Positions 1,033-41,694 of a stretch of 64,000 bases of DNA are shown piece by piece. How positions within the stretch are numbered: the stretch's first letter is position 1; each line of letters opens with the position of its first letter. The translations under genes were made by a program, and so were the position numbers. Location: the NCBI RefSeq assembly GCF_024868665.1, contig NW_026634485.1, positions 1 to 64,000 of the forward strand, given 5' to 3'. The notes under the pieces were generated by a model. The model saw only the letters and a program-made list of their open reading frames with translations. It did not search any database and had not been told where the DNA came from. The DNA is from Triplophysa rosa. Its lineage: Eukaryota > Chordata > Actinopteri > Cypriniformes > Nemacheilidae.

Positions 1033-1827
1033 TCACAGACCCTTTTTAATGCGCACTTTATTCCCTGGTCGAAAAGAGAAATGTCGCACTCGATGCTTGT
1101 GGTCAAAGCGAGATTTCATGACATCCTGACGTGAGGAAACACGTTTCTGCAGTGGTGTCGGCTCATGACCAGAAGGTGAAGGTTTCAGGACATTGAGACG
1201 GGTACGCATTTTCCTTCCATGAATCAATTCGAATGGGGAAACACCTGTTACAGCATGAGGTGTAGAGCGGTAAATCTGCAGGAAGTCAGTCACTGTTGAT
1301 TTCCATGGTGCTGATTGTAGGATTGCTGATTGGATTGTACTCTTGAGAACCCTGTGAAAGCGTTCAATAGCACCATTTGCAGCAGGATGATACACTGAAG
1401 TACGAATGTGCTTAATATCTCTGTCTTTCAGGAACGCAGCAAACTCAGGGGAAGTGAACTGAGGCCCATTATCACTGACCAGAGTGGTCGGGTTGCCGTG
1501 TCTGCTGAAGACACAGGTAAGAAATGCAGTCACTTGTTTTGTTGCAACAGACGCAGTAAAGGCTACCTCAGGCCACTTACTATAATAGTCAGTGAGTGTC
1601 AGAGCATATCGACAGTCCCAGACAGCAATCTCGAACGGGCCCACAATGTCTATCGCCAGTTTTTCCCACGGTGCAGAAGGTAAAGGAACAGGCTGGAGTG
1701 GAACAGCAGAGGCTTTCGCAGTTTTGTCCAGAGAAAGACATAAATGACAAGCAGCAATTTTCTCCCTCACAAATGTGTCCATGTTTGGCCACCAATACAT
1801 CTCACGCAGGCGTTGCTTCGTTCTCAC
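1033..1827 (-). pseudogene. gypsy integrase remnant
   Basis: A minus-strand frame of 264 residues. It begins inside the HHCC zinc-binding region (the CHLC pair is visible) and covers the catalytic core, with D in LAIDIVGP, D in LVSDNGPQF and E in NGAIERFHR. The C-terminal region (VRIKKGL) follows. The core is unbroken, but the frame is cut off from RNase H by a frameshift and from its own start. Confidence 0.85.
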
Positions 1828-2591
1828 AATTCCCTGATGACCCTCATATGTGCAATACGGAACAATGACTCACGCACTTTTCCAGGCACAACCAGTCTAG
1901 ATCCTCTAAACACAAACTCAGCTTGCACCCTGAACTCATGTCGGAGCTTGTAGTATGGACGAATCACAGGATCCACAGCAGCAGAAGATGAAGGCCATTT
2001 ACTCGCAATTTGTGCGCGCAACGCAGAGAGTTCAGAACAGTGAGCAGAGGCAGTAGCAAATTCTTCCTGGGATATGGCAATCGGACCAGAAGACAGTAAA
2101 GCAACAAACTCGGGTTCTGTATCCGACTCAGCATCCAAAGGAAGAGGCAAAGGCAAGCGGGATAAACAACCTGCAGTGTAGTTCTCAGATCCATCACGAT
2201 ACTCAACTATGTAGTCGAAACAGAGCAACCGAGCAGCCCACCGAGCAATACGCATACCAGCTCTATCAGTCCCTTTTGTGGTCAGCAGTGTCGTTAACGC
2301 TTGATGGTCAGTCCGCAACGTAAATCTGCGACCCCACAAGTACGTTCTCCATTTTTCCACCGCCCAGACACACGCCAGAGCCTCCTTTTCAACAGTGGAG
2401 TATTTCTGTTCAGCTGAGGACAGTGTTCTGGATGTGAAAGCGACAGTATGTTCTTGACCATCAGTGCCAATTTGAGCGAAGACAGCACCTAGTCCATATG
2501 CAGACGCGTCAGTAGAAATGACCACCGGCATCTCCGGGTCAAACAGTATAAGCGCAGGACTGTGAACCAGCAGCTTCTTCACATCATCCAA
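1824..2591 (-). pseudogene. gypsy RNase H remnant
   Basis: A minus-strand frame continuing the RT across one stop codon. It contains the RNase H start ISTDASAYGLGAV, the EKEALACVWAVEKWR segment and the RTDHQAL motif, in the order seen in Ty3/gypsy RNase H. The later part leads to the integrase zinc-binding region, where a frameshift near 1825 breaks the frame. Confidence 0.85.
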
Positions 2592-2594
2592 GCT

Positions 2595-4039
2595 TTATTG
2601 AGCATCATCAGACCAGCGAAATCCACTCTCATCTCTCAAGCACTCACGCAGAGGCATCACCACGGAAGCGAAATTAGGAATTAATTTGTTGTACCAGGAG
2701 AGAAGACCCAGCAAAGAACGCAACTGAACAGCATCCGTTGGTGCAGGTGCATTGATTATTGCAGATAGATGTTCCTGATCCAACTGAATACCCTGCGACG
2801 TCACCATGTGGCCTAGAAACTTCAAGCTCTGTTTTCTGAATTGACATTTTGACTCATTCAACACCAACCCAGCATCTTTGAGATGTTGCATCACCTTCTC
2901 TAGCGCTTGATCATGTTCTTGCAGCGAGCGTCCCCACACAATGATGTCGTCCAGATAATTTGCAACGTTCTGGATTCCTTTTAGAATGATGTCCATCATC
3001 TTTTGGAATGCAGCTGGAGCAGACGCCAAGCCATAAGGTACCCTGCAGAATCTGAAGAGGCCCTCGTGTGTAAGAAAAGCAGTGAGGTCCCGGCAATCTT
3101 CATGAAGAGGTACCTGATGGTATGCACTTTCCAAGTCTATAGTTGAAAACACAGTCGCACCTTGCAGTAATGTCATCATCTCCTCCATGTGTGGCAATGG
3201 GTAACTGTCTACTATAACTGCCTTGTTGGGCCCTCGCAAGTCCACACACATGCGGATCCCCCCGTTTCCTTTTGGACCACATCAATCGGAGAAACCCATG
3301 GAGAAGAATCAATCCGTTCGATCACACCAGCCTGTAAGAGACGTTCCAGTTCTGCGGAAACAGCATCTCTCACGGAGAAAGGTAAGCGACGCAATTTGCA
3401 TTTGACAGGAGGTACAGAGTCAGAAATGTTCACCTTGTGCGTGAAGTTGTTCAAACAGCCTAATGCAGCACACTGTGATGGAGAAGTGGAGAGAGCACAG
3501 ACTGGAGCGGATTGTGCCGACGGCAGCACAGTGTGTCCAGTAATTTGCAGCTGAAGTCCCTTAATCAGATCCATGCCTAGCAAAGCAGTGCCAGTGTCAA
3601 CAATGAAGAAGTGTGCAGGACAGGTAATGCCATATTTAGTGACTGTAGCAGATAAACATCCTAGTACTGAAATCGGCTCTTGTAAGTAAGTAACTAAACG
3701 GGCAGCAGGGGCTTGCAACGGCACAGTGCGAAAATGCTGTTCATACAGTTGTTTCGGCAGGATGGACACAGACGAACCAGAGTCCACAGTAAGTTGAAGA
3801 GACACAGGGGTAGCAGCAGGTGAGGCATGTACGGTCACTTCACACATCAGACGGTCAGTCGCTCCAGGCAGATGGAGAATACAGACCTCTGGCAATTCAA
3901 CTGAATGCACTGAATGAGTAGGAGCAGAACGGCAGACTCGTGCAAAATGTCCAATCTTATTGCAATTCTTACATTTAGCAGATGCAGCGGGGCAGTTCTG
4001 TGCTTTGCAAGATGTCCAGCAGAGCCACAGCGAAAGCAT
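2595..4039 (-). pseudogene. gypsy protease and reverse transcriptase remnant
   Basis: Two overlapping minus-strand frames. The first (3212-4039) has the zinc knuckle and then an aspartic protease site reading VDSGSSVS, so DSG where DTG is usual. The second (2595-3251) is the RT palm, with LDLRGPN-type and STIDLESAYHQ motifs and the catalytic YLDD box. The two join by a frameshift near 3250. The second frame ends at one in-frame TAA before RNase H, so the polyprotein is broken. Confidence 0.85.
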
Positions 4040-4795
4040 GTTCGAGCTGACGGAGCAGAAGCAGGTGGTTTTGATGAGGTACGTGCTTTGAATTTGGCCT
4101 TAGGACGCTGTCGTCCAGAAGCAGGAGTGGCATGTACAACTTGAACTGGAGCGAAGTTACTCGTAGCCAGCGATTTCGCCTGAGCATCAGCGGTCTCTAG
4201 CTGTGTGGCAAGTTAATTGCAGTCTCCAGTGTCAATTTAGATTCCACTAATAATCTTTCACGAATGCGAGGGTTAGCAATATTTTCAACAAGTTGATCAC
4301 GCAACATATCGTCAAGATTGTCAGCAAATTCACAAGTAGTCCTAAATCTCTTAATGCAGCAATGTATTGTACTACGTTTCATCTATCCTCTTATGCGTTT
4401 CCTGAAAGCATGTCTTTCCACGACCACATTTCTTTTCGGAACGAAGTGTTGTTCCAAAGCCGTAATAGCATCAGCTAGATCGTCACCGGTATTGGGCAGT
4501 GTATAAAACAATCTCTGACCTTCGGTTCGAGGCAGTGAAGAAGCAAAGCACGTTTTCTGGCTTCTGAACATAAATCCCCAGTAGCATTGATGACTAGCAT
4601 GTAGTTCCGGAACATTTTCAGCCATGTGACTAGCGGTATAGCAGGCTCACCGGGACAAGGCAAAAAAGGATTGGGAAATGGAGCACTTACTGAAGCCATC
4701 CTCAAAAAATCTTGTAAAAAAAAAGTCCTCGTCGCCAATTTGTTATGTCTTAATGCAGACAAGAAGCTGGAGACCGTGATTCCTTTTAGTAACAT
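3975..4795 (-). pseudogene. gypsy Gag remnant
   Basis: Minus-strand fragments in several frames make up a Gag-like protein. The N-terminal part (4475-4795) begins close to the primer binding site and the middle parts are at 4383-4625 and 4197-4382. A CCHC zinc knuckle (C-x2-C-x4-H-x4-C, CKNCNKIGHFARVC) follows near 3960 at the start of the protease frame. The knuckle is typical of retroelement nucleocapsid. Broken by frameshifts. Confidence 0.7.
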
Positions 4796-8850: not shown

Positions 8851-9560
8851 TCTTGAAAATAGCATAAATATCTAGTCCATAATAAATGCTACTGGATCTT
8901 AAAACTAGATACAAATAGACTTTTTAGCTTTTTATAATAATTTAATAATAAACAAGTTAGTGAAAACTGCATTAAAACTAGAATATTTGAACTTAAATCT
9001 AGTCACAAAAATACTATTGAGTCTTATAAAAAGAAAATATTTATTTATTTTTAAGCATGTTTGTCTAGTTTTAAGCACTGAATGATAATAATTCTAGGAA
9101 AAATTGCATTAAAACTAGAATAATTAAACTTAAATCTAGTCACTAAAAATGCTACTGGGTCTTATAAAGAGAGAAAATTGTTTATTTATAAGCATTTTTG
9201 TCTAGTTTTAAGCACTGAATGATAATAATTCTAGGAAAAATTGCATTAAAACTAGAATAATTAAACTTAAATCTAGTCACTAAAAATATTATTGGGTCTT
9301 ATAAAAAGTTTTTTTTCAGCATGTTTGTCTAGTTTTAAGCACTGAATGATAATAATTCTAGGAAAAATTGCATTAAAACTAGAATAGTTCAACTTAAATC
9401 TAGTCAATAAAAATACTGCTGGGTCTTAAAACTAGACATACATGCTTAAAATTAAACAGTTTTCTCTTTTTATAAGCAATGAATAATAATATTTTTAGGA
9501 ACAAATTGCATCAAAACTAGAATATTTAACCTTAAATCCAGCTTATTTAGATTTTTTTTA
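8851..9560. repeat. Tandem repeat, unit about 137 bp, at least five copies
   Basis: The phrase ATTAAAACTAGAA recurs at 8971, 9108, 9245, 9372 and (one change) 9510, giving spacings of 137, 137, 127 and 138. Each unit also holds CTTAAATCTAGTCA and TGTCTAGTTTTAAGC. The array probably extends into the N gap. It lies downstream of the 3' end of gene A. Confidence 0.9.
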
Positions 9561-9661
9561 AGATCACAAAAACCTAAAATGAGATGAAAATTCTCAAAAT
9601 AAACATCCCCCTTACCCCCACTTTAAAATGAAGAAAAAAGAACACATAGCTTTGCTGAACA

Positions 9662-10531: not shown

Positions 10532-10860
10532 TTATTAGTCAACAAACATTCTCCATTCTTGAATGACCTTTTTGTATGACGGGGTTGCATCCTGATCGTG
10601 GATGGCATCTCTCAGAACTTGTGTTTTTTTTTTTCCCCTGATTTTTTTAAATATTCTGTGTCTATCAGTTAAAATAAACCCACCATAAAATTATAGACCC
10701 TTCATTTGTTTGTAAGTAGGCAAACTTACAAAATCAGCAGGGGATCAAATACTTATTTCCCTCACTGTATTAGTCATTCAAACATTCTCCATTCTTGAAT
10801 GACCTTTTTGTATGACGGGGTTGCATCCTGATTGTGGATGGCATCTCTCAGAACTTGTGT
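10532..10860. repeat. Duplication of gene A's last coding end around a Tc1 fragment
   Basis: Positions 10545-10620 and 10785-10860 are nearly identical and both encode, on the minus strand, the C-terminal DQDATPSYKKVIQEWRMF-type segment of gene A. Between them is a Tc1-like transposon end. The outer copy (10545-10620) is surplus. Confidence 0.85.
10625..10769 (-). mobile_element. Tc1-like transposon end fragment
   Basis: On the minus strand it starts (from 10767) CAGTGAGGGAAATAAGTATT, a recognisable teleost Tc1-like terminal repeat, and runs through GATCCCCTGCTGATTTTG. A TA dinucleotide lies at the outer end. The element body and the other end are missing. Confidence 0.75.
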
Positions 10861-10887
10861 TTGCAACACAGACAACTTTGGATATGT
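10774..10887 (-). pseudogene. Displaced C-terminus of gene A
   Basis: Minus-strand codons for 37 residues (starting TYPKLSVLQTQ, ending EWRMFE, stop at 10774-10776). They would follow directly on HL at the end of exon 8 if the repeat at 10891-11125 and one 4-bp duplication were absent. With the insertion present this part is separated from the gene by an earlier stop codon. Confidence 0.85.
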
Positions 10888-10890
10888 GAG

Positions 10891-11125
10891 ATTTAGATTT
10901 AGATTCAACTTTATTGTCATTGCACATGTACAAGTACAAGGCAACGAAATGTGACCTCTGCATTTAACCCATCCAGAGAGTAGTGAACACACGCACAGCA
11001 AGTGGTGAACACACGTACCCCCGGAGCAGTGGGCAGCTATCACTGCAGTGCGCGGGGAGCAAGTAGGGGTAAGGTGCCTTGCTCAAGGGCACCTCAGTTG
11101 TTACCCGCCGGCCCTGGGAATCAAC
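10891..11125 (-). mobile_element. LINE/SINE-type insertion in gene A's last exon
   Basis: A 235-bp interspersed repeat with an AATAAAGTTGAATC tail and short ATTTAG repeats at its minus-strand 3' end, flanked on both sides by TGAG (10887-10890 and 11126-11129), a 4-bp target duplication. The body includes GCCTTGCTCAAGGGCAC and CAGTGGGCAGCTATCACTGC, segments common in teleost genomes. It is inserted in the sense direction of gene A and brings a stop codon (11121-11123) and an AATAAA (10910-10915). Confidence 0.85.
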
Positions 11126-14100
11126 TGAGGTGGAACACATAGTAATAGGCCAGGAGGTAGAGAGGCCCCTCGTGGAGCAAGTCTTTGTCAAATGTTAGAA
11201 CTGGGGTTGTACCTACAACCACCTTGCAGTTCTCCTCACCAACCAGCAAGACAGGAGTGGAAAATGAGCGCCTGTGGATGTAGGTATCTGGATCCTCTGA
11301 AGGCTAGAAAACCAAATAGAGAATTTAGATTACACACACAGCAGAAATTAAAACAAGATCACCATTCACTTTTATAGAATTTTATTCCTATATGGAAGTG
11401 AATGCTGACCCAGATCTGTTGGGCTATCAACATTGTTTAAAATATCTTACTTTTGTGTTCTGCAGAACAAAGAAAGGTATACAGGTTCAAAACAACTTGT
11501 GGGCAAGTAAATGATGACAGAATTTTATTTTTTCTGTTAACTATCCCTTTAAGTTATTTTTTATGTTGCATGGCCAATTTTACGTAGTGGAATTAGGATG
11601 GATTTAACCCTGTTAATTAGGATTAGGCACCTGTTAATAATTTATCATTACTGACGCAGGGCTCTAGACTAACTTTTTGCACTGGTTGCACTGGTGCGCC
11701 TAACTTTTTTTCTTGGGTGCACCAGCACAAAAGTTAGGTGCACCCAAATTTTCGACCGCATTGCATTTAACACCGCAGTTTTACAAGTTCACTTTTTTTT
11801 AAATCGCTGTCCATATAGGCAGTATTGACTTGTAAATGATTAACTAACAATCTGGTCAACATAAAGTTCTTTATTTGAAGCACAATTCTACAAGAAAGCA
11901 GGGCTCTAGACTAACACTTGAGAGAGGTGGCACTGGTGCTACCAAGTTATTCAGTTGGTGGCACCAGCCCTTAATTTGATAGCACCAGAGTCATGGGGTG
12001 AGGTAAGAAAAAAGAATCACTAAAACTTCATTAAAATGTGTTTAATACATTAATAAATCAATTAGAAATTAATACAAATCATTGTTTATGATTGATTGAT
12101 TTTTATTGTATATGTAAACTCTCTTTCAACACTTTACCATATTTAAAGCACATCTTTCTTAAAGCTACTTTCTTCCTTTATTTGTTGTGAACGACTCCTA
12201 TAAGAGAACACAATTCCTTTAATATCAGTGAGTGTTTTTGGGCCCGTCCGTTGTTGTTTGATGAACATTATAAACAGAGATCTTTATTATGCTGCTGCCC
12301 CTTTAAGAGCTCGCGCAATATACTGGAACACGTGTTTTGTTTTCCAACTGTTTGGTCACGAAACAAACTGAATACCTTTACAAGGTTTCTTGTTAATATG
12401 GGAATTTTTAGGTTATTTTGTGTTAATATGTCCGTTTCAGAGTAAGAATGTGTGAAAGAGAACTCTGTTTAGTATTTTGTGCTCTGACTCTCTGGGCGCG
12501 CGCATATCTCAAACAACCCGCGAGACCTGAAGGCTTTTAGTGATTATTCTTCATGAAAGCTGCATTGATACACGTTTGGCTTCTATCAATAGCGACTCAC
12601 AAATAAATAGTATTTAGCGTGATGTATAACGTTTTGTATGCTTTGCAGTATTGTTAGAGATCTTTATACAATAGTTCAGTGCTTAAAGTTTAAACACGTG
12701 TTTCCTGCATTAGCTTCACATGCATACAATACTTGCAACACATTTCGTTATCTTTGCTGTTTTGTACCTTAGCAGGGGAAATTCTTGTATTCTGCATATT
12801 TATTTAAGTTGCAAGATTGAGCGCTTCACTCGTCTGCTCTTTCGGTCCTTCGCCTCTTACCCGTAACCCACGAATTACGTCTTTGGGGGCGGGGCACTGA
12901 TAGATAAGTGAATGGTTGAAGGAGGGGAGACGAAAATGAGTGACTGAATGCGCAGCTTGCGCAATATAACATTTCTGCGCATTAAATTTATAATACGCAA
13001 AAATTATATATTGATCAGTTTGACAGTCGCACCGGTGCGACCATTAAGAAAAACTTGTCGCACTGGCAGGAAAATTTGTCGCAAAATGAGACCATTTAGT
13101 CGCAGTCTAGCGTGTCAGAGCATTGGTTATGATTTTCGGACGGATCAGGCCTTAACTTAACATTCTTAACGAAAAAGTTGTCAATCGTTCTTTTCATCTT
13201 CTCTCATCATCCGCGGCTACATCCACTCTGTTTATCTGACGGGCCTAGGCTACTCACCTCTCTGTCCGACTGCAGCACAGCATTTTCAAACGTACACACA
13301 CGTACAGGAATATCTGGACCACGGCCAATCAGAGGGGGGTCCGCCCTTCACTATCTCTGATTGGTTTAGACCACGATATGGGCCTAATGTGTCTGTTGTT
13401 GAACCACAGGGAGACTTTTGCAGAGACTTTTTTTCCCTCAAACGGCTGGTCGCACTGGTGCGACCTCAGATTTGTTTTAGTCGCACCATTGAGAAATTAG
13501 GTCGCACTCTAGAGCCCTGTGACGTAAAACTCACCATCAGAACGTGGAAAAGAGCCTCACTGATTGGGACCTGTTTCTTCGGTGCTGTAGAACCAGATGG
13601 GAAGAGCAGCGGCAGGGCAGTAAAAACAGCAATGGCATGTCCAACTAGTTAAGGGAAGAAAAAAAAAGATTTATATCAATATCAGATAGTAGGTCTGTAT
13701 CTATACCACTGGTTTCTGATCCTGGAGGTCCACTGCTCTGGAAATTTGTAAGTCTCCCTTATTTAACAGACCTAATTCAGATCATAAGTTCATTAGAAAA
13801 GAGCTCCATGAACTGAATTAAGGGGCTGTTTACACAACTTTGTTTTCAACTGAAAAACCTTTTTTGAATTGAAAACTACTGATCATAACAAAGTTTCTCA
13901 ACTCTGGCCCTTGAGAGCTGAGTTTAGCTCCAACCTTGATCAAACTCACCAGCCTGTAGATTTCTAGTAGGACCTGAAAACACTGATTAGCTTGTTCAGC
14001 TGAACTGGAGCTTGAGGGCCAGAGTTGAGAAAACTAGAATTAAATAAAGCTTTACCTCCATTTAATGTCCTTGGAGGCTTCATGACTTTCTTCATCACTC

Positions 14101-16221
14101 CATAAAACTGAACCTTGGAGTATAAGGTCTCCCACCTGCCCTTCACCTCAGAAATGTATTGGCAATTGTCTGGTTCAATGATTCTCCGCAGTTCATCCAT
14201 TGCCTGAAAGAATTATTCATTTAATATTAAAAAATTGTCTGCAGTTAGGCAGGGGATATGGGATATTTGTCAGTACATAATAAATCTGCCTGAAGTACTG
14301 TATGCTTCTGTGTACCCACATGGTCAAGTTCTTTGAAGCAGGGGTATGCTTGCAAAATTTTGGTTGGTTTGTCTTGCTCCTTCAAAGCATACAAGTCAAT
14401 GAAATTTCTTCTGGACTGGAACTCTAGGTCTAATAGATGGGTTACAGCAGCTTTGTTTGGCTTCTTTGCTTTGTACATTTCTTGCAGAGTCCTGTAATGT
14501 CTTGCCTGGGTTTTCTGGCTGTCAAAGCTGTTGTCTGCATCAGCTACAATTTAGCCATACAATTTAATTACTGAACAACATGCACAAAATTAACACTCCG
14601 AGAATGTATTTGACATAAAAATAAAGAAGAATTACACTTACTTATATTACTAAACATTGTGTTATTTACTAAATAATAAATTTTGAAGTAAGGTGGCCAG
14701 ACGTGCCACTTCCTGAGGACATGTTGTGCACAGGATTTCTAAATTACCTACAATAACCAGGTTATATATATGTCCTCAGGAAGTGGCACACCTTGTAACC
14801 TTATTTTAAAGTAAATTTGAATGTACTTACATGCTTCATCGATGCTGTCATTTTCTGGCCGTGGGGTGCTTGATCTTGAAGGTGGTGACAGATTGACTGT
14901 TGATGCACAGGAATCAGCGTCATAGTCACTTGCCACTGCAGCAGAAGGTTCCCTGTCTTGACGTGCTGTTTTGGAAGGAGGCCTTTTGGCCTTCACGGGA
15001 CTTCGGATATTTGAAAACCGCTTCAGGAGATTTTTGGCAACGGTGTCCTGTACAACAGAACAAATGCATCAATTAATCATTTTGAAGCAATGTTAGCGTT
15101 TTTTTTAATAATTAATTTAATTATGTCACTCACCCACTCATGCCTAGATCCAGTTGACTTATCTTTTATCATAGGGTAGTATTCCACTAACCGTTTTGCC
15201 ATGGCAATAACTTCATGTTTAGTGGGATATTTGTAGTCATCTGAAGATGCTCTTGCAATAGATATCATGTTTGTCATGGTATTTCGGATGAGCCGGCAGA
15301 ACAGCTCCTTTGATAAAGTGACGTCACCCTCTTTTCCAAGACGCTGCTGCTCAAAGTATGTGCGTCTCATGTGTTGTAGTTCACTGTCAGTGAAGAGAAC
15401 ATATTCTGGGCTGGGTAACTTTAAAAACTTTGAAGTGCTGGGGTCATCTTGTTTTGAACTGCGAGTATGTTCGTCGTCTGATGAACCTTGGACTTCAACA
15501 GGAATGGTGTGACCCTAAAATACATACACATTAATCAAATCAGATAAAGTAACAAATATCCAAAATACGTATATTTGAAGTTAATTACCTGCTCTTCCTT
15601 ATGAGTCAAAAGCCAAATGGTTTTGCGCCGCAGGAAGTGCTCAGGACCAGGAAAGAGATCTCGGATATCCTCGCGTGAGAGAGTTGGTAAAATGTCTTCC
15701 CCAATGTTAGCATCTTAGAGCACATGCAAATTCATTAGTCAATGTAACTCAGGTATACTTTGTGCGCATAAGTATTCAGATATCGAAGAAATATATATTC
15801 ATGTCAATATAGCTAATTAAAATAGTTTATCCAAATATATATATATATATATACAGTATATATATATTTCGTAACATTGACCTAAATGGGCAGAAATATT
15901 AAAATGATAACACTTAAGAAATAGTTTTATACTTGTAAAAGGGGACATTGGATGCTAAATTAACTTTTACATGGCGTTTAAACTTAAATTTGTCTTAGTA
16001 TGTATACACAACCACCCTAAGCATAAAAATGTATAAGCGTAATATGTTCAGTTAACTTAATTTCATTTGATACATGAACGTGTTTTTTTCCAGTAGGAAG
16101 CATTGCATATTCGATTACAATTCCATTTCAAATACAAGAATTACCATAACAAACAATTAAGTGATTTTAGAAACTACTAACCTTTAAGAGTGGAAATCTC
16201 AACCTCGTCGAGTCCATCCAT
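11121..16221 (-). CDS. Gene A: SAMD3-like multicopy teleost protein, 8 coding exons
   Basis: Minus-strand exons: 16182-16221 (start ATG 16221), 15589-15713, 15134-15514, 14831-15047, 14320-14543, 14056-14203, 13535-13644 and 11121-11303. All introns are GT-AG and phases agree. The sum is 1428 nt, giving 475 residues plus stop with no internal stop. Visible parts: an N-terminal SAM-like segment (about residues 20-50, with LSREDIRDLFPGPEHF), an acidic and serine-rich stretch, a helical block with YPTKHEVIAMAKRLVEYYP, a basic serine/proline linker in exon 4, and a conserved C-terminal block (FTALPLLFPS, LLHEGPLYLLAYYY). From memory this is a family present in many copies in fish, often labelled sterile alpha motif domain-containing 3-like. 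Function unknown. The last 37 residues are cut off by an inserted repeat, leaving HLS-stop. Gene B starts head-to-head 302 bp away. Confidence 0.8.
11395..11552. mobile_element. MITE end in intron 7 of gene A
   Basis: The right half of the same MITE family as 9899-10197: GGCAAGTAAATGATGACAGA followed by TAACTATCCCTTTAA. The left end is degraded. Confidence 0.5.
11657..13519. mobile_element. hAT-like element in intron 7 of gene A, nested copies
   Basis: The left end CAGGGCTCTAGACTAACTTT (11657) and right end, complemented, CAGGGCTCTAGAGTGCGACC (13519) form terminal inverted repeats. A second CAGGGCTCTAGACTAAC at about 11900 and an internal GTCGCA-rich end near 13030-13115 suggest one element inside another. 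Subterminal GTCGCACC/GGTGCGAC motifs repeat at both ends. The outer right end lies 15 bp from the exon 7 splice donor (13534). No transposase frame was recognised. Confidence 0.7.
13893..14033. mobile_element. Short foldback MITE in intron 6 of gene A
   Basis: TTTCTCAACTCTGGCCCT at the left and its complement near 14017-14033 bound a 140-bp foldback, a common teleost MITE pattern. Confidence 0.65.
15830..15870. repeat. AT dinucleotide microsatellite
   Basis: A run of AT repeats with one ACAGT interruption, in intron 1 of gene A. Confidence 0.9.
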
Positions 16222-16522
16222 GGTGAAAAACTGGCGGGAGGAGGAAGTGCCTTCGTCTCCTAAGTGAACTTTGGCGGGATGATTGCGTATGCGTCTTAAC
16301 ATTAATGCTTCATAGGGGTCAATGCACGGTTACTCATTGCGCATGCTCAACGCGCGTTTTCTAATTTCCTGTGTTTTTGTACGTGTTTGGTTTGGCGTGT
16401 AATAATAGTAGTTTTCCTGATGTAACTGAAAGCCGCGGTTAAAAGAGACATTTGTCGTCGATTTTAAACTCAATATTTCTATTGTTTAGCTGCGAAATCT
16501 TTATTTTATTTCAAGGAGAAAA
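16222..16522. promoter_or_regulatory. Shared upstream region of divergent genes A and B
   Basis: 301 bp between the two start codons. It holds TTTGGCGGGAT (16270-16280) and a second GGCGGGAGG nearby, which match the E2F core, and TTGCGCATGCTC near 16337, resembling an NRF1 site. No TATA box in either direction. A CpG-richer region than its surroundings. Bidirectional promoter use is inferred. Confidence 0.5.
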
Positions 16523-18207
16523 ATGATTTGGCGCTGCGTTATTTGTTATGTATTTGTTGCTCTTACTCTTAAATCTTTGTTGAGTCACATTAATTTTGCA
16601 CACAGTCGTAGTCCAGATTTCCGCCTGGTTTGTGGAATAGATGGATGCACTAAGGAGTACCGAGTATACAACTCTTTTTGGTATCACGTCAGGCGAACAC
16701 ATTTACAGTATCTATACAGCGTAAACAGGAGCAGAACACTTCGCAGAGAGAGATCTGTACACGAGGCATCCAGCAATAATGTGTAGGCAGATAGTGGGCC
16801 AACATTGGTGGCTCAGGAAGAAGGGAACTCTAGAAACAGTCTGGATAATGGAATGACACTGGTAAACACTGTGGATCTACAACCCTCTCTTCCTGTGGAA
16901 CATTTTGGTGATTTTGACACTGGCGAAACAGTGTTTTCTGGCATAAACAGTAACTCCGTTTTGCCATTGCCTCAGAACCTGGAAATAACGTTGCAACAGG
17001 ATGCACTGAATGAAACTTCAGATTCGAATCCCACTCTACTCATTCCAAACAGGCCTTCGGATGACTCATGTTCTTCAAGCCTCCCCAAAGAAAACACGGT
17101 AAATGACTAACTATTATGTTATATTGTTACTATCATTTCACAGTCTTTTTTTATAATGCAATTATTATACAGTTAAGAAATGTTTTTCTCGTATGTAGAA
17201 TGATGATGATGTGCTGTCCAGACATGCCACTGCTGTTGTGATGACTGCTAGAGAGAAACATCATATCTCACAGGTTAGTATCAATAAATACAAATCTTAC
17301 AAAATGTTCTGTTAATGTTGTTTATGTATGAATGCACACACACACACACAGTGCTTGAATTTATTAGACAACCACCTAATGTAAGGTTTGTGCCAAAGAT
17401 GCCCTAGACTAACATTATTTGTGATTACCAAAATAAATTGTTTCTGCAATGGCTAATCCACCAGTATGTGAGCGCTTTATTCACAGTAGTATGTCTAATG
17501 CTAACATTTAATTGTTGTCATCCATGAATTTTTTATTTACTGTTTATTACAAGAAAGGCAGAAAAATAGTAAAGCACATTATTACAGTATTATTTTTATT
17601 TGTTTGTTTTATTCAGATGGCCAATTACATAAAAGTATACAATCAATGCCATCAAGGATGTAAGTTGTTATCAAGGCCAAAGGAGGTCATACAAAATATA
17701 ATGTTTTTTGGTTGTGTGTGAAAGAATATTTCAGTTGTTTCAGCTTGTTGTTTGTATATTTTCTTGACAGATTCCTATATATTCTTTTTGTCTTTATGAC
17801 AGGTGGTTAAACAAATATCTACAAACACACACACAAAATGACACATAATGATTTGTTCCTATGTAATTATGTAATTTTTAGTGTATTTCCCTGCTAATTA
17901 TTTTTTTCTCCACCCCCCTCCCTTAAGAGCGGAGTGAATGACGTTGTGGCAGTGGTTCAGGAGTATCAAGCTCAGTTATTGAACAGTTTGAGGAGTCAGC
18001 TACAAACAGTGTTCAACAGACATTCAGAAAGGAAGATTCAACAAGAAGCTTTGAGAATCTTTGACAGCTTTAAAGATCCATTTGCGGCCGTTTCAACAAC
18101 ATACATGTGTCATAAAAGAAAAATTCAGTTTTGTGGAAGCAGAAGAAGTTCCAGTTGGATTAGCAGTATGCTGTCAAAAAAGAGAAAAAACATGAGACCT
18201 CTGCATA
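16523..18207 (+). pseudogene. Gene B: C2H2-finger protein of TNP2-like transposase family, 5' part
   Basis: Exons on the + strand: 16523-17098, 17199-17273 and from 17928, with GT-AG introns in phase 0. Exon 1 encodes two finger-like segments (CVICYVFVALTLKSLLSHINFAH, in pieces; CGIDGCTKEYRVYNSFWYHVRRTH likewise described here only by its C-x4-C and H-x4-H pairs). An in-frame TAG at 16784-16786 interrupts exon 1, though the same frame stays open to 17098. Exon 3 encodes GVNDVVAVVQEYQAQLL and a helical region, then loses frame near 18108; in the next frame EKFSFVEAEEVPVG continues. At about 18207 a DIRS element cuts the exon. Related multicopy fish proteins continue into a TNP2-like transposase domain, which this copy lacks apart from the short fragment at 23431-23538. 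Confidence 0.7.
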
Positions 18208-18212
18208 AAAAA

Positions 18213-18420
18213 CGTCTCGGTTACGGATGTAACCTCGGTTCCCTGATGGAGGGAACGAGACGTGTCGAACCGACAGATGGGGTTCGTCCCTGAAAACCAA
18301 TCGCTTCCGACTTCTTAGAAAAGGCCAATGAAAATTGGTGAATGAAATTTGGATGCCGGACTCCGCCCCCGGATATCCGGGTATAAAAGGGAGACGCATG
18401 CCTCATTCATTCACCTTAGT
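18213..18420. repeat. Left inverted terminal repeat of DIRS
   Basis: Starts CGTCTCGGTTACGGATGTAA. Positions from about 18262 are the inverse of the right repeat, including AACCGACAGATGGGGTTCGT and the CCGGATATCCGGG palindrome. Confidence 0.85.
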
Positions 18421-18490
18421 TCTGAGGAGCCTGAGACCTCTCACGACTGCTGCAGTGGACAGCACGTGTTGTGGCAAGGAGGACACAACA

Positions 18491-18590
18491 TCTCGTTCCC
18501 TCCATCAGGGAACCGAGGTTACATCCGTAACCGAGACGTTCCCTTTCTGTCGGTCTCTCGACGTTGTGTCAAACCGACAGATGGGGTTCC
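18491..18590. repeat. DIRS internal complementary region (ICR)
   Basis: 18491-18538 is the exact complement of the left outer end (18213-18260), and 18539-18590 is the near-exact complement of the right outer end (to 23430). The junction GAGACG|TTCCCTTT fixes both element ends. Confidence 0.9.
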
Positions 18591-19115
18591 TATGGAAAAC
18601 GCCATAACACTGTGCCCTGTCACAATCTCTAGCGAAGCGACGGTGACTGGCCTGGGCGTGTCAGCCGTGAGCGCTACCGCGAAATTGTAACCTACCAGTG
18701 GGTAGGTAGGGGGTCCCAGAGCTTTCTTGAAAGGTGGGAAGGCCCCCACCTTCGGCCTCACAGGCGGCGGCCTTGTTTCTCTAACAGCGAGAAGCCGCCC
18801 GGAACCATAAGGCCACTGGGTAAGTGCTACTTCCTCAAGTGGGGGATGCGCTACAGAGACCACTTCCTACCGCAGGGAGGAGTCTAGTGGAGATACCAAC
18901 ATGGTCTCACCGATAGGGGAGAGCTCATGGGAAGAAAGTGCGGATTGAAGGAGTTAACCGCGAGGTGGAGTTCCACCTAAGGAGGTCATGGGTTACCAAG
19001 GTGGGAACCAGCATGAGGATACATCAGACGGAACCGCCCTACTGGGGGGTTGCAACGTCTGGTAGCACTAGGTCCGGTTAGAGCTATGTTGCGAATAACT
19101 CCGGAGATACCCGGC

Positions 19116-20467
19116 CTAAGGGGCAGGGCTGCTCTGCCCAGCCTGCCGGCAGGAGGTGCTTGCTAGTGATGGATGGAGTGCCTGTTCTTCACCCAGTGGG
19201 GGAAGAAGGGAGGCTAGTAGTACGCTGACTCCCTTAGGAGAAAGGGGGGAAGGTACTGTTATAGGCGTACACCCTACCGGCCGCCGGTCTTGCCTGATGC
19301 CTGCAAGACTCGAGCCGATACCGGTTTTACGCGGAGGCTGTAGGACCTCGCGAAGGTGATGGGTGTAGCCCAACCCGCAGCTCTGCAGATGTCTGCCAGA
19401 GAGGTGCCTCGAGCCAGTGCCCACGAGGAGGCTGTACTCCGTGTGGAGAGAGCTCTCACCCAGTGGGCGTAGGCGATCTTAGGACAGGTACGCCATAGTG
19501 ACGGCGTCCATGATCCAGTGCGCCAATCTCTGTTTGAGACAGCCCTCCCTGCTGATCTCCAAAACAGACAAAGAGCTGCTCAGAGCTCCTGTGGCTCTGC
19601 GTGCGGTCCAAGCAGAGGCGCAATGCGCGTACTGGACACAACACAGATGGGGTTGGGTCTTCCTCCCCGGTGGGGAGCGCCTGTAAGTTCACCACCTGGT
19701 GTCTCGGGGGAGTGGTGGGAACTTTGGGCACGTAGCCGGGCCGGGGTCTCAGGATAGCGTGAGAATGACCGGGCCCGAGTTCTAGGCAATCTGTGGACAC
19801 GGAGAATGCTTGTAGGTCCGCTACCCTCTTGAGCGTCCTCCCGAGAGCCGTCTTCATCGTGAAGTGAGAAAGAGCGGCATCTCCGAGGGGCTCCAGGACC
19901 GCATCAAGGTCGTAAGAGGGTACGGAGCGTGGGTGAGGTGGTAGCCTTCCCGCGCCCCTTAGGAACCAAATGATCAGGTTGTGCTGTCCTAGAGACTACC
20001 AGCAACTGGGTCGTGATGAGCGGCAACAGCGGCTACATACACGTTCAGTGTGGAAGGGGAGAGATTATTCTCGAGTCTCTGGGAGGACCGCACCCACTTG
20101 ATCAAGCAACTCCGCGGGTCTTCTCTTCGAGAAGAGCACCAGGATGAGAAGAGGCACCACTATAGGCGTATAGTCGCCTAGTGGCCAGGGCCCTAGCCTG
20201 AGTAGTGGTCTTAACCGCCGCAGGGGTTAGGCCACTCAGGATCTCCTCGTTCCGTCCAGGGGCCAGACATGGAGGTTCCAGAGGTCTAGCCCGTGATGCC
20301 ATAACGTGCCCTTCCCCTGGGAAAGCAGGTCCTTCGTCAGGGGAATCGGCCAGGAGGGAGCTGTCGTCAAGAGCATTAGCTCCGAGAACCAAGTCCGGTT
20401 GGGCCAGTATGGCGCAACTAGTACACTTGATGCTCCTCTCCCTGACCTTGCCACAGGGTCTGTGCAA
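19116..20467 (-). pseudogene. DIRS tyrosine recombinase remnant
   Basis: Minus-strand fragments: an N-terminal core-binding part near 20102-20467 (TRRLYAYSG-type), a middle part at 19456-19857 (LFVCFGDQQGG, a DIRS recombinase feature) and the catalytic C-terminus at 19274-19459 (SSWALARGTSLADICRAAGW, followed by TFARSYSLRV). This domain is a lambda-type recombinase that integrates the circular DNA copy. Several frameshifts, so not functional. Confidence 0.8.
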
Positions 20468-20810
20468 TGAGGCTAACCGGGGGAAAGATGTACTTCCACT
20501 TGTCCCACGGCCAGCTGTGCGCTAGAGCATCCGTGCCGAGGCAGGGAGTACCTTAGCGGGAAATGGGTGGTGTCCAGGGAGGCGAAGGGGTCTACCTGAG
20601 CCCGCCCGGACTGTACCCAATGAGCTGGCTGCGCAGGGGTGGAGTTGCCACTCTCTGCGAGGCGTCAACTGACGAGAGAGGACATCGGCTGTCTGGTTCA
20701 GGTCGCCTGGGATATGTGTGGCTCGCAGGGATCTGCTCACCTGCGGACTCCACAGGAGGAGGCGTCGGGCGAGTCGTGTTAGCTGCCGTAAGCGAACGCC
20801 ACCCTGGTGG

Positions 20811-21900
20811 TTAAAATGCTACGGCAGTTGTGCTGTCCGACCGGACCAGCACGTGCTTGTTCTGCACGAGAGGTTGTAACCCCTTCAGTGCGGGTAGCAC
20901 ATCCAACAACTCTAGGCAATTTGATATGCCTGCGCAGGCAGGGGCCCGTCCATCGCCCCGACACTGCATGCCCGTTGCACACGGCACCCCAACCCTGCAG
21001 AGAGGCGTCTGCGACCCTGACGCGTCTCGACCTGCCCGAGAGGGACCCCCGTTCGTAGAAAGGTTATTGAAGACCAAGGGGTTAGGGTGCGTCGGCAGAA
21101 AAGCGTAATCACCATTCGCCTGCTGCCGGTGTGCCACGCTCTCCAGGGAACTCGACTCTGTAGCCAGTGTTGGAGCGGTCTCATGTACATCAACCTGAGG
21201 GGTATCACCACCGTCGAGGATGCCATGTGCCCAGGAGCCTCTTCCCGCTGACTGCTTGAACCCAAGCAGTTCAACACTGACTGAGAGCAGTCGCGCTGTA
21301 AAGGAGACAGAGTTGAGTTCCATACCAAAAAAGAGGTGCTCCGCACAGAGGAGAGCTTGCTCTTTTTCGGTTGACCTGTGGTCCCAGTCGATCTAGGTGC
21401 CGAAGCACTAGGTCCCTGTGTGTACGTAACAGATCTCACGAGTGTGTCAAATGAGCCAGTCGTCGAGATAGTTTAGTACCCGCACACCTCTCTCCCTGAG
21501 GGGAGTGAGGGCGGCTTCCACGATCTTCGTGAAGACTCGTGGGGACAGGGACAGACTGAATGGGATGACTCTGTACTAATATGCCTGACCCTCGAAAGCG
21601 AACCGTAGGAACGGGCGATGACGAGGGAGAAGAGACATGAGAGTAAGCGTCCTTCAGGTCGATTGCCATGAATCCATCTTGACATCTGATAGTTGCCAGG
21701 ATGTGCTTCTGCGTGAGCATCCTGAACGGTAGCTTGAGTAGGTGCCTGTTCAGGGTACGCAGATCTAGCGACCCCCTCTCTTTTGGGGACGATGAAGTAC
21801 GGGCTGTAAAACCCGTTGAACATCTCGGCTAGAGGGACGAGCACGATCGCTTCCTCACCAGAGGGGTGGCGACTTCGGCCCGAAGCACGGGGCATCCCTG
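20811..21900 (-). pseudogene. DIRS reverse transcriptase and RNase H remnant
   Basis: RT pieces at 21436-21895 show LVPLAEMFNGFYSPYFIVPK and the FMAIDLKDAYSHVS catalytic motif. The RNase H part at 20811-21323 has ELNSVSFTARLL and VLVRSDSTTAVAF. Frames change several times, and the usual YLDD box is split. Confidence 0.8.
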
Positions 21901-22379
21901 CCTCTGCTGAGGTTAAGAGGATGCCCCGAAACTTGGGCGGGCGTCCGGGGAGTTGGATCGCATAGCCGAGACGGACCGTATCCCGTAGTCACCGTGACGG
22001 TTTGGGAAGCTCTTGTCAGGCTCCCAGGGACCGACAGGGAGGCTAGGGGTACGTTCTGCTTCATTGACCTCCCGGGGGTGGTTCGATGGCTGGCAGTGCG
22101 GATCCCTCGCCATGGGGGGGACCCCCGGAGAGGAGATCGGCTCTGCAGTTTTACCTGCCTGGCGATGATGTCTGATGATTATCCTCGACATTGGGTCTTG
22201 CCGCAACGTTGAGTTGCCGAACACCGTCGTGTAGAGGGTGAGAGCGGCTGTGATAATACCCAGACGATGATGTGGCACAAAGCACCGTCGATTGAGAGTG
22301 CTTAGGCTGCTGATTATCCTCGACATTGGGTCTCGCCGTGACGCAACGTCGAGTTGCCGAACACCGTCGTGTAGAGGGT

Positions 22380-23076
22380 GAGAGCGGCTGTGATAAACGC
22401 CCAGAGAGGGAGAAAACTTTTAGAAAGGTATTCTCGAACTCCCTGGGGTCTTCCCATGAGGGCCGCATTGGCTTTCGCCGCGGCTGCTGATGGGGTGGTG
22501 GTCTCCTCTTCGATGTCTCGAAGGGGACCAGGGCTGCTGGGAAGCAGACGGTGCACGGGATCTCGGCGGCCAGAGGGCGGTCGAGTCGCGGCTGGGGAGG
22601 ACATACTTGATATCCTCTGTCTGCTCCCTAACTGTCGAACTTGACAGTATCACCAAACAGCCCCCCTTGCGAGATGGGTGCATCGAGAAAGCGGACTTTC
22701 TCAGTATTACTCACCTGTGCAAGGTTCAGCCAGAGGTGTCTCTCCTGGACCACAAGTGTGGACATCGCCCGACCCAGGGCCCACGCGATCACCTTGTTCG
22801 CCCGAGAGCGAGGTCGGTGAAGCCGCGGAGTTCCTGCATAAGCGCTGGGTAGGTCTTACCCTCGTGGTAGTCCTGCCGTCACGGAACGGGAAGCAGACGT
22901 GGTGGTGGCTCAGTCCCGTGGGAACTCAGCCACCCGTGACGCAATGTCTGAATCGTCAACCGCCCGCAGTGCAGGCAGGACGTATCCACAACATCTGCCC
23001 CAGCGTACTGGAAGCAGACATCGTGTCCGTCCCCCTCCTCGATGAGTGTGTTGCACCCACGAGAACAGCGGGACAT
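22380..23076 (-). pseudogene. DIRS gag-like ORF1 remnant
   Basis: The minus-strand start at 23076 reads MSRCSRGCNTLIEEGDGHDV and has a CLHCG pair, the cysteine-rich N-terminus of DIRS ORF1. Downstream pieces at 22314-22800 are in mixed frames. Confidence 0.65.
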
Positions 23077-23234
23077 GCCACGCTGGAGAAATTTGCTCTT
23101 TTAGAGAAAAAATTTGAACACTTCTGGAACTGCCGAGACGCCCAGGGGAAGTCGCTGCAGGAAGGGACAGTCCGCTGCACCACGTCGTAGAGCAGGCAGT
23201 CTTGTAGCGAAGTCTGTTGATCATGAGTGAAGGC

Positions 23235-23430
23235 TCCGAAGAACAAAAGGTGAATGAATGAGGCACGCCGTCTCCCATTTATACCCGGATATCCGGGGGC
23301 GGAGTCCGGCATGCAAATTTCATTTGCCAATTTTCATTGGCCTTTTCTAAGATGTTGGAAGCGATTGGTTCTCAGGGACGAACCCCATCTGTCGGTTCGA
23401 CACAACGTCGAGAGACCGACAGAAAGGGAA
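23235..23430. repeat. Right inverted terminal repeat of DIRS
   Basis: Inverse of the left repeat; ends ACCGACAGAAAGGGAA at 23430, beyond which gene B resumes. Confidence 0.85.
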
Positions 23431-23538
23431 CAAATGTTTCCATTATATACCTCTGATAAAGAGTTTAGAACAATTACTGTCTCATCCAAAAATCTTTGCA
23501 ATGATAAATGGAGGACCTCAGAAGTGCAGCAGTGTTAA
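23431..23538 (+). pseudogene. Gene B fragment beyond the DIRS insertion
   Basis: Directly after the DIRS end, the + strand encodes YIPLIKSLEQLLSHPKIFAM and then GGPQKCSS, the segment expected next in gene B. Homology stops near 23538; the transposase part does not follow. Confidence 0.65.
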
Positions 23539-24252: not shown

Positions 24253-25570
24253 GTTCTTGAAATTGAATTTTTAGGTGTGGTATCAGTCTTAAAATTAGCA
24301 AAACAATCTAACTGAACATGCACCATATTTGGGCTTTATAGCTATCACTTGTTTCTAGTAAAATCTTACTCAAAATGAGTTAACATTTACTTGCCTTGAC
24401 CGAAGAAGATACATTTTCTTAAATTAAGATTTATAGTCTAATATGCAATGTATTTTAAGACTATTTATCTTTAATGGCAAAAAACAAGACACATTTTCTA
24501 GAAATACGCTTTTTAAAACTTTCTTAGATTTCAGTTTTTGCTTGTTTCTAGTAAAATCTTGCTCATTTTGAGCAAGATTTTACTAGAAACAAGTTATAGC
24601 TATAAAGCCCACGTGCATGTTCAGTTAGATTGTTGTGTTAATTTTAAGACTGATACCACACCTAAAAATTCAATTTCAAGAACCTTGAGAAATGCATGCA
24701 GACTGTCATGGGCGTGCGAAGACAGAACCCAAATGCAGGCAGCAGTACGGGTAACACAAAAGATTTTAATAAATGTAAACACAACAAAAAACCCACGATG
24801 GGGAAAACTGTACAAAACACAAAAACAAACTAAAATACTTCCCGAACGGGGATAAAGTACTCACGAAGAATAAATCCAAATAATAAGTCCAACAAGAAAA
24901 TAGCCCAGGGGAAACACGTAATCCACATGACACGAACACAATAGAACAATATGAACCGACAAAAACTAGAGACTGAGGGGAACATTAAATAGGGAAAAAC
25001 TCACAGAGGATAATTACAGAGACGAGGGACAGGTGACGAGGATAAAACAATCATGGAAAGAATCAGGGAAACAAGAGAGCGGGGCTATGAGACAAGACCG
25101 GAGGACACGTGGCAAAAAGTAAACAAAAGCAATGCGTCTCCACACAAAACACCCGCAGGACATGGTTCTATCACGACCCTGTCCATAGAGTTAAAGAACT
25201 CGAAAACAGGAAGGACAGAGTCCTGACACAGACTCAATCATAAAAAAACAAAACAAAAAAACAATCGTTTCTCAAGGTTCTTGAAATTAGAATTTTTAGG
25301 GGTGGTATCAGTCTTAAAATTAGCACAACAATCTAACTAAACATGCACCATATTTGGGCTTTATAGCTATAACTTGTTTCTAGTAAAATCTTACTCAAAA
25401 TGAGTTAACATTTACTTGCCTAGACCGAAGAAGATACATTTTCTTAAATTAAGATGTATAGTCTAATATGCAATGTATTTTATAAGACTATTTATCTTTA
25501 ATGGCAAGAAACAAGACACATTTTCTAGAAATAAGCTTTTTCAAACTTTCTTAGATTTCAGTTTTTGCAG
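24253..25570. repeat. Foldback repeat in three modules, split by a solo LTR
   Basis: Module 1 (24253-24540) is followed by a partial inverted copy (24569-24692) and, after the solo LTR, by a second forward copy (25268-25570). All share GGTGGTATCAGTCTTAAAAT or its inverse. A perfect 25-bp inverted repeat with a 3-base loop lies at 24541-24593, and CAAGAACCTTGAGAAA at 24677-24692 faces its inverse at 25268-25283 across the LTR. Probably a foldback DNA transposon. Confidence 0.85.
24704..25228 (-). mobile_element. Solo LTR, TGTCAC family, copy 2
   Basis: Ends TGTCATGG...CTGACA with the 5-bp duplication CAGAC on both sides (24699-24703 and 25229-25233). The minus strand is the LTR sense: complement of GAACCCAAATGCAGG near the start and AATAAA late. 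It sits in the loop between inverted foldback modules. Confidence 0.88.
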
Positions 25571-25787
25571 TGTAGATATAAAATTACACATTCATACTAG
25601 ACATACACACACAAACCTACATCTGGACAGGCTTACAAACAAAAACAACAACAACTGAAACATCAGAAGTCTTTTCAATACACTGAACTTATTAACGATG
25701 ATGAAATGTATGTCTAGTGTGTGTTTGAATGAATGTCTCAGAATCAGGGCACAAACTGGTGTTACTGAAGTCAAAAGGTTTAAAACT

Positions 25788-27444
25788 TTAATCCCTCAAT
25801 CGCAATGCCAATGTCAGTGTTAAACCAGTAATGGGATGGAAATGTGTTAGTGATGCACGCAAGACACACTCTCCCTTCACTCCATAGCGACTGTTAACCG
25901 AGTCGTTTTGCACACTTTGCACAAGAATGTCATGCTCAGCTTTAGTTCTCTGGACAAATGTACCATCACTCACTGCATTTACTTGCACTTCCTCAACTGT
26001 AGCCATACAAAACCTGCAAATATTTCCGGCTCTGAAGGACTCAACAAAGCCAGCTAGCCCATGAGCAGCCAAATTGTCTGCAGAAACACAGAACACTGTT
26101 CCTCTGATATTTCTACCGAGTGAATCAATAAAGACACCATCCTCTTCAAGAGCTTGGATATCACGCAAAAGCGGTGCAAGTACTGCAGAGTAGCCATACA
26201 TCTGTATGTCTGTTACTTTACAAAGCATAGCTAACTGAATAACATGTAATGATGATCGATATTTAGGATGCAGATTGGCTAGGGTCCAATACACTGCACA
26301 CAGTTTATGAATTTTGCGAGACGTCCCTAGAGGATTAGCAATTTCCAAATCATCAATATACAGCTGCAGCGACAGTGTTAGTTCTTCGGCAGACAGTATG
26401 GTAGTAGTTTTCATGGTAGTAAGTTCCATCAGTGTGAGAACTGTAGCACCCAGCTTCTGAATTTTCTGCAGTAATCTTTGTGAGAATGTCAGAATTTCGA
26501 AACAAAGACTGAATCATTCTTAGAACGGGAACATACAAACTGAAGTGTCCAGATTGTGGCAAGCTATACTGCTGTGGCATTACAAGTGGGTAGTTGTGCT
26601 CAATAAATGTTTTTCTGCGTTTAAATGAGGACAACTCTGCACCTTCAGAGGTTTCACTGAACAGAACATTACAATTCATTACAGCACTGACTAACTCATC
26701 CAATGCAACTTCATTGACATTGTAGCCATATTTCTGCAAAACATCACAAACTGTTTCCCTGATCAACGGCTGTGACAATGAGAATATGTCATTTAGTTGT
26801 TCAATGATTTCGTTTGTGGCAGTGTTAGATATGTGAAGTATTGCCTGCATCTTCAGAAATAAAGATGCAACATTATGTTTCAGCTGATTTCTCAGTGCAT
26901 CATTATCATCTCTGTCTTGCATTTCTCTACTTTCATTATCCCCATTACCTGCAAGTTCATCTGAAACATTTGCATCAGAAGTAGAGGGGAAGGGCTCAGG
27001 TTCTGGATAAGCATCACCCTCTTGGAGATCTGACAGATTACCATCGTGTACCCTACTCTTGTGTGCGTTGAATGATGAATACACATTTGTGCTGTAACTG
27101 CAGTTCTTATATGGGCAAACAACAGTCTCGTAGCTCTTAAGATGCGCTCTGAGGTGACTATATAGTGCGTCTTCAGAAACGGATTGTTCAAATTCACACA
27201 GAGTACATTTAAATGAAATGTGTGTCTGACTTTGATGGGTACTACAGCTCATATCTGTCACATGGTATCTACACATGTGAGTTTTGAATGCACTGAATGT
27301 GTGAAATGTGCAGGGGCAATCAGGATACATACATGGCAGTGGACTTATTTTAGAGCAGTGACTGTGTTTCACTCTGTAATGTCTGAGCAGGTGGACTCGG
27401 GAACGATGAATCTTTCCACAAACCCTGCACTTCCAGTCCATCAT
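25788..27444 (-). pseudogene. C2H2-finger plus TNP2-like transposase-type protein, copy 2
   Basis: Minus strand. The start is taken at MDWKC or the Met before it (27444), since TTTGCTTTTCAG just upstream looks like a splice acceptor. Four C2H2-type fingers occupy about the first 135 residues (CRVCGKIHRSRVHLLRHYRVKH pattern: C-x2-C, H-x4-H). An acidic linker and a helical region (LFLKMQAILHISNTATNEI) follow, then PQQYSLPQSGHFSLYVPVL. A one-base frameshift near 26410 moves the frame to 25788-26429, which has LYIDDLEIANPLGTSRKIHK, DNLAAHGLAGF and CRFCMA. These match the core of TNP2-type (CACTA/Plavaka-like) transposases as I recall them. The frame ends at a stop after PITGLTLTLAL, possibly at a splice donor. 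Same family as gene B, better preserved in this half. Confidence 0.75.
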
Positions 27445-27471
27445 CTTATTTGAAATCTGAAAAGCAAACAT

Positions 27472-28408
27472 TTACACCGTTAAACTTTATGATTCAAACA
27501 GCAATAGCAAGCAGGACATAAGAATAAAGTATGCACTGACAGGTACACACCATGCAAAATGATGCTCAAATTAAACAATTTACATTTTATGAAAAGTGCA
27601 CAATTAGTGCCCTGAGAATGTCACTGTAATGTTTAAACCGTTTCTGTTTACGAATTAAACAGTAACAGCAAATTGGATGTAAGAAAGTTAAATGTATGCA
27701 TGACACACTTCGTGCAAAAAGAATGCATTAATTGATTGAACACTGTGCAAAGCACAGAAAGTGCCTTGAAATTGACATTTCATTATAATACGAATATGAT
27801 TCATGTAATTTCGTCCGTCGCAAAAAATAACACGTTCCAAAAACATAACAACTGTAGTGTTAATCATAACGTAGTCAAATAAAACACTACCAAAATACGT
27901 ACTGAAAAAAAAATTCTATATCCATTTTAAGTGAATTTACCTCTTAACTATAGGGCATAGAGACTACAGTTCTGGTGTGACGATTTTTTTATTTAAAGGG
28001 GTCATTTTACGCGGCTAAAACGAATATTATTACGATGTGTATACCTGATTTAAGCTTAAAAAACGCTGTATTTTCCACATACCGTGCATGTTTGTATCTC
28101 CTCTTAGCCCCGCCTCTCTGAAACGCGAGGATATTTTACAAAGCTCATTGCTCTGAAAAGCGAGGTATGCTATGATTGGCCAGTTCACTATGGCGTATTG
28201 GTGAAATACTGCAATTGTGTGACGGAAATGCAACGCCTCTTACCATATTCGGAACATCAGGTTTCAAAGCAATTGTGCTGACAGGTACGCCCACATTACT
28301 TGCGTGTAGATTTGGACGGTTAGTCAAATCACTCCACGACCTGACGTCAAGTTGTGGGGGTGTGGTTACACGAGGCGTTTCAGGCAGGTCTGGGTGAGCA
28401 TTCGCTTC
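27472..28408. other. Non-coding DNA with a GGGGTCAT-type transposon scrap
   Basis: 27472-27950 is AT-rich with nothing recognised; notably no divergent SAMD3-like partner exists here. TTTAAAGGGGTCATTTTACG at 27994 resembles a common teleost DNA-transposon end. Confidence 0.45.
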
Positions 28409-41438: not shown

Positions 41439-41694
41439 CTCCTTATCTGCACGGACACGAACTACGCCAGACTAAGCTTCACATGTCATCTCCCGGGTTG
41501 GACACAGAATTGGTTCAGAACTGCTAACAATAAGCCAGTCAAGCATCAACACCTGTTCCAAGCATGCAACGTCATCACAATGGTACACGATATGCTTGTC
41601 TACTGGAAAAAGGTAAAAGGACACTCAAAACAACCTGGCCAAGACAAAGACCTCAATGACCAGACAGATGCCCTTGCATAAGTAGGCGCACTCC

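Follow-up and report, generated by a model that had tools for sequence, protein, structure and literature searches.

The stretch of DNA analysed here, referred to as the window, comprises positions 1 to 64,000 of contig NW_026634485.1 (C542; 179,729 bp) in the 684.8-Mb genome of the loach Triplophysa rosa, and contains two adjacent genes transcribed in opposite directions, gene A and gene B. This pair almost certainly belongs to a two-gene cut-and-paste transposon of the CACTA/EnSpm-like (CMC) type. The fuller reading, in which these genes form a decayed copy of such a transposon and gene A encodes an accessory protein, is the likely one, with less confidence attached to the role of A than to the membership itself. 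The evidence comes from two relatives of the pair, on contigs C973 and C316, where both genes lie within one set of ends and were inserted as a block at a duplicated TA.

These relatives are whole elements of 9,654 bp (C973) and 9,842 bp (C316), with the layout terminal inverted repeat (TIR)-B-A-TIR, in which A lies inside the termini and both B and A are transcribed outward. All four ends carry CACTGCAAA, TA target duplications flank both elements, and same-side subterminal homology is shared between the two. In addition, the two flanks of each element are found at another place in the genome with no element between them and a single TA at the junction, and these matching empty sites indicate that each A/B pair was inserted as one block. 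An earlier sequence-only reading of the window had proposed that the pair may travel as a mobile unit, a proposal now supported by these termini, TA duplications and empty sites; the shared ends and target duplications, which had escaped that reading in the window, are present at C973 and C316. The repeat at the C316 insertion site is presumably a long interspersed nuclear element, and a Pfam scan of two peptides from it gave no match. A 2,054-bp tandem duplication at C316:1043-3097, either real or an assembly effect, repeats the A-side end of this element together with its flank.

With 42 of 42 candidates scored, the gene A family comprises five loci on five contigs (the window, C973, C316, C7, and C14), and B-family sequence lies within about 20 kb of all five. 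This count of adjacent copies, which had been suggested for cyprinid genomes and was run here in the window's own genome, favours the pairing, the chance of an A locus falling within 20 kb of one of six B places in 685 Mb being estimated at about 3.5 in 10,000. Since five different contigs hold these loci, and the repeats that surround the two whole elements are not the same, the pairs do not occupy one syntenic place, which removes the objection foreseen on that ground. The A loci are only about 50% identical to one another, yet A stays with B. As for the divergent layout of the sequence-only reading, it holds at the window, C973, C316, and the decayed C14, and fails at C7, where A and B share a strand. 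In the C973 and C316 elements, B occupies the strand opposite to A and lies upstream of it, with a start-to-start distance of 2,427 bp in the former, and with the B start about 2.1 kb from the second exon of A in the latter, whose first A exon is unplaced. At C14, two B pieces (56% and 38% identity, the second with many stops) lie 13-18 kb from the A pieces in divergent orientation, and one A exon is inverted. The B-family genome search, with 52 of 257 candidates scored, gives a lower bound, with matches of at least 50% identity listed at C973, C316, C14, and C461. A genome search with the DNA of gene A exons 2-3 gave 58 matches, 57 of which fell in one AT-rich intron stretch and one of which was the window itself; no close copy was found in the genome among the best 40 of 66 candidates scored.

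In the window, gene A occupies 10780..16221 on the minus strand as a putative SAM-like (sterile alpha motif-like) accessory gene of eight exons: 16221-16182, 15713-15589, 15514-15134, 15047-14831, 14543-14320, 14203-14056, 13644-13535, and 11303-11121. Spliced together, with AG/GT borders and consistent phases, they give 475 codons and a stop. The start at 16221 is 302 bp from the gene B ATG at 16523 (+), leaving 16222..16522 between the two start codons. The eight exons, consistent phases, 475 codons and 302-bp spacing given by the sequence-only reading were confirmed, except that the stop is not the true end of the gene. It falls within an insert of about 240 bp in exon 8 (10890..11127, approximate borders), which we take to be a SINE-like (short interspersed nuclear element-like) sequence, and the C-terminus of the family, as placed by its relatives, resumes past this insert at 10896-10780. 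The gene A frame stays open up to the insert, which lies late in exon 8 and severs the conserved C-terminus. A second partial copy of the last exon (10538..10696, minus strand) is accompanied by an 84-bp direct repeat (10543-10626 and 10779-10862, 99%). Gene A aligns over its full length with fish proteins, with 89% identity to a 517-aa Danio protein, and the 372-aa T. rosa protein LOC130550915 is identical to it over 78% of the query. A 305-aa Onychostoma protein matches exons 1-3 of gene B at 88%, with 91% of the query covered, and, taken together, these matches show that the divergent gene pair is not a product of chance.

Gene B is less well preserved. Its exons 1-3, with a C2H2-like start, occupy 16523..18210 (+) and contain an in-frame TAG (16784-16786) and, near 18100, a change of frame. 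They are followed by a 5.2-kb insert (18211..23431) with complex inverted terminal arms, presumably DIRS-like, two open reading frames (ORFs) of which gave no match in a Pfam scan. Gene B resumes at 23432..23538 (+) and is then lost, since no B-like sequence was found in the window past about 23538 and its 3' part is absent. The window gene B is a pseudogene. With the last exon of A split by an insert, and with B carrying a stop, a frame change and a 5.2-kb insert and lacking its 3' part, the window copy is old and dead, and can no longer move.

Traces of the ends of this copy may still be recognised. On the A side, 9471..9602 aligns with the A-side end of the C316 element at a level reached by none of 200 block shuffles, making it a possible subterminal region, and adjoins tandem repeats and an assembly gap. 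These tandem repeats, of 137 bp in 4.3 copies (8963-9538, beside the gap), are possibly the subterminal repeats of the window copy. On the B side, 25560..25574 (minus strand) matches 15 bp of the C973 B-side terminus exactly, and may be either the B-side end of the window copy or the end of a related short element. The motif TACACTGCAAA, with at most one mismatch, occurs four times in the window, with no excess over chance (mean 2.5; at least 4 in 19 of 100 shuffles).

Relatives of both genes are found in other fishes. The gene A family counts 240 proteins across many of them, 120 of which were listed, and both the A and the B lists hold cluster representatives only. Two A relatives, P0014 and P0075, bear the UniRef name 'Sterile alpha motif domain-conta...', and the structure model of a Danio relative (mean predicted local distance difference test score, pLDDT, 76) has a SAM-like fold at its N-terminus. 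A Foldseek search with this model returned five SAM chains among 47 matches (template-modelling score by target 0.40-0.62), weak matches that hint at a SAM-like fold in the N-terminus of gene A; the Pfam SAM domain was not matched in 44 members of the family. For the gene B family, 26 relatives were found, the longer ones including P0156 (878 aa) and P0159 (925 aa). DUF4218 (PF13960) is present in 12 of 17 aligned members at E <= 1 (best E 9.1e-8), and above the Pfam cut-off in two of eight proteins scanned singly. Acidic motifs, GDTLAQH and DEIEICNPLG among them, occur in the B proteins of C973 and C316, their assignment as catalytic being putative. From DUF4218 and a weak Transposase_21 signal in its relatives, B is predicted to be a CACTA/EnSpm-like transposase.

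The linkage of A and B in other fishes was judged from gene names and equal contig size alone. By this measure, Serrasalmus SRHO_G00069210 (A) and SRHO_G00069200 (B) are on contigs of equal size, Gasterosteus LOC120827894 (A) and LOC120827889 (B) were counted as evidence for linkage, and Astyanax, Menidia, Leuciscus, and Sarotherodon have one A and one B each on equal-size contigs. Against linkage, the listed A and B are on differently sized contigs in Onychostoma, Siganus, Epinephelus coioides, Simochromis, Myxocyprinus, Nerophis, Oreochromis, and Pampus punctatissimus. A correlation of A and B identities over 14 loosely matched species pairs (r 0.33) was dropped owing to the ambiguity of the A-to-B pairing. 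In a tree of A proteins (55 rows), the pairs Paramormyrops-Archocentrus and Simochromis-Brachyhypopomus both receive a support of 100 in the Shimodaira-Hasegawa-like approximate likelihood ratio test (SH-aLRT), and the Clarias, Danio, and loach proteins group together (SH-aLRT 100), unlike in the species tree. Such pairing of distant fishes suggests horizontal movement, or mislabelled assemblies. Viral contigs, scanned with one relative of A and one of the transposase B' described next, gave no match.

A second CACTA-like lineage, with the transposase B' and a partner gene A', is represented in the window by a B' fragment at 25822-27940 (minus strand), 98.6% identical to C22:964566, with a frame change near 26405 and a truncated 3' side. 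This fragment (25.8-27.4 kb) was considered as a member of the gene B family and rejected, since tblastn separates the two. Elsewhere, three loci of this lineage on three chromosomes (C6:23843741-23845711, C23:9467994-9470072, and C13:6241179-6243155) share 99.66-99.72% identity across 4,689 bp, which points to recent activity. The C6 and C13 elements (8,700 and 8,316 bp) have CACTGTAAA termini and TA duplications, and hold an 899-codon transposase frame followed by the A' gene on the same strand. We take A' to be PB1-like and SAMD3-like; a Pfam scan gave no match for it. Of 30 fetched loci, 16 show the start of an A'-type gene behind the transposase, and the remaining 14 have none in the flank covered. 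An A exon was found in none of the 1.5-kb flanks of 30 B' loci. The comparison of A and A' by hhalign (E 0.0018 for the pair, probability 15, one side being a single sequence) is suggestive of a relationship between them. This lineage resembles the A/B element in its C2H2-like start, related transposase, TA duplication, and second gene, and differs from it in its CACTGTAAA termini, in the partner placed 3' of the transposase on the same strand, and in its recent copies.

Among the known systems with a close likeness is CACTA/En-Spm (CMC), with which the A/B element shares termini beginning with CACTG, DUF4218 with weak Transposase_21, and a second gene. CACTR terminal inverted repeats are present at C973 and C316, and their TA duplications with empty sites are within the 2-3 bp range, as is the TA of the second-lineage C6 and C13 elements. 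The two genes of En/Spm are TnpA and TnpD. Contrary to this plant system, the loach A and B genes are divergent, and the partner has an apparently SAM-like N-terminus and is no plant TnpA. According to the available text of PMC4158355, the CACTA target duplication is of 3 bp, versus TA in the loach elements, and the second protein of En/Spm aids excision and transposition. TRC elements, as far as the available text of PMC1636069 describes them, are animal Transposase_21 elements with 2-bp duplications and relatives in Danio; however, their termini are CCCTAGT... and CCCAGTCAAC, unlike the loach CACTGCAAA, their two tandem ORFs sit in one spliced clone, and that text mentions no SAM-like partner. 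The zebrafish EnSpm-N elements share the EnSpm name and, in the part of PMC3485254 available, are non-autonomous and devoid of coding capacity, unlike the A/B element. Short elements of this type may end like window 25560-25574. We found no literature report joining a SAM domain with a CACTA/EnSpm transposon, in a search that left most subscription journals uncovered, as well as Repbase and Dfam, which may hold a consensus of this element; papers mentioning SAMD3 and transposase concern, in their accessible parts, cancer, immune cells or beta cells.

In the proposed mechanism, B, as a DDE-type transposase with a C2H2-like finger at its N-terminus, would cut and join DNA, and A would act in the manner of TnpA of En/Spm, binding and bridging the element ends, with its SAM-like domain perhaps linking molecules bound at both ends. 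By this analogy, A is probably an accessory transposition protein. An unlikely alternative is that A is a passenger gene caught in the element, with no part in transposition. This would fit the lack of a recognised DNA-binding domain in A, but leaves unexplained why A has been kept with B at loci only about 50% identical, and why over half of the second-lineage loci fetched carry, behind the transposase, a gene that may be related to A. It is far less probable that A and B are host genes joined by a shared bidirectional promoter, their pairing reflecting old synteny and not mobility. Even though the 302 bp between the window starts and a gene A open for 475 codons and close to a Danio protein would agree with this, five loci on five contigs with common termini and TA duplications do not, the start distance at C973 is much larger, the window B is a pseudogene, and the empty sites of C973 and C316 contradict it. 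Nor does much speak for a window gene A tamed as a host gene, with B decaying beside it, to which we give a similarly slight chance: A has stayed open where B has not, and cyprinid A-clade proteins are 82-89% identical to it, but the insert cuts off its conserved C-terminus, and the grouping of Clarias and Danio with the loach protein does not follow the species tree.

Several results weigh against a two-gene CACTA/EnSpm-like transposon. The copy number of the gene A family is low, its five loci in this genome falling short of the 'very many copies' in fish named by the sequence-only reading; C461 has one B fragment without A, and at C7 the short B pieces, 1-4 kb upstream of A, share its strand. 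No recognisable left (A-side) terminus of the window copy was found. The gene A family showed no Pfam domain and no recognised DNA-binding domain, and all five SAM matches of the Foldseek search have E above 1, none of the 47 matches having E below 0.001. The fold model of B is poor (mean pLDDT 42.5). Finally, Transposase_21 (PF02992) is weak in the B relatives, being found at E <= 1 in two of 17 aligned members (best 0.0077) and at E <= 0.1 in none of eight proteins scanned singly.

Fish genomes contain many gene models named 'uncharacterized' or 'SAMD3-like', and the autonomous sources of EnSpm elements and their second proteins are poorly described. An A-type gene travelling in a transposon with its transposase would account for such models, and would warn against treating them as host genes. 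The A/B element would also provide a defined two-component CACTA-like system in vertebrates for addressing what the second protein does. Gene A resembles SAMD3 and SAMD3-like proteins in the UniRef names of its relatives and in its apparently SAM-like N-terminal fold, its relation to SAMD3 itself being presumed. More tentatively, and with the odds somewhat against it, many of these fish genes could be CACTA/EnSpm-like accessory genes: both lineages, the divergent and the tandem, would carry versions of a single SAM- or PB1-type protein, partners that bridge or polymerise would belong generally to this vertebrate transposon machinery, and the vertebrate SAMD3 would maybe be a tamed copy.

The window also holds other open frames. 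Those at 1033-4099 (-) and 37054-43155 (+) are long and presumably belong, from their appearance, to long terminal repeat retroelements; the one ORF scanned within the latter (39445-40098) gave no Pfam match. At 54745-55836 (+), a 363-codon open frame with Tc3-type helix-turn-helix and DDE_3 domains encodes a Tc1/mariner-like transposase.

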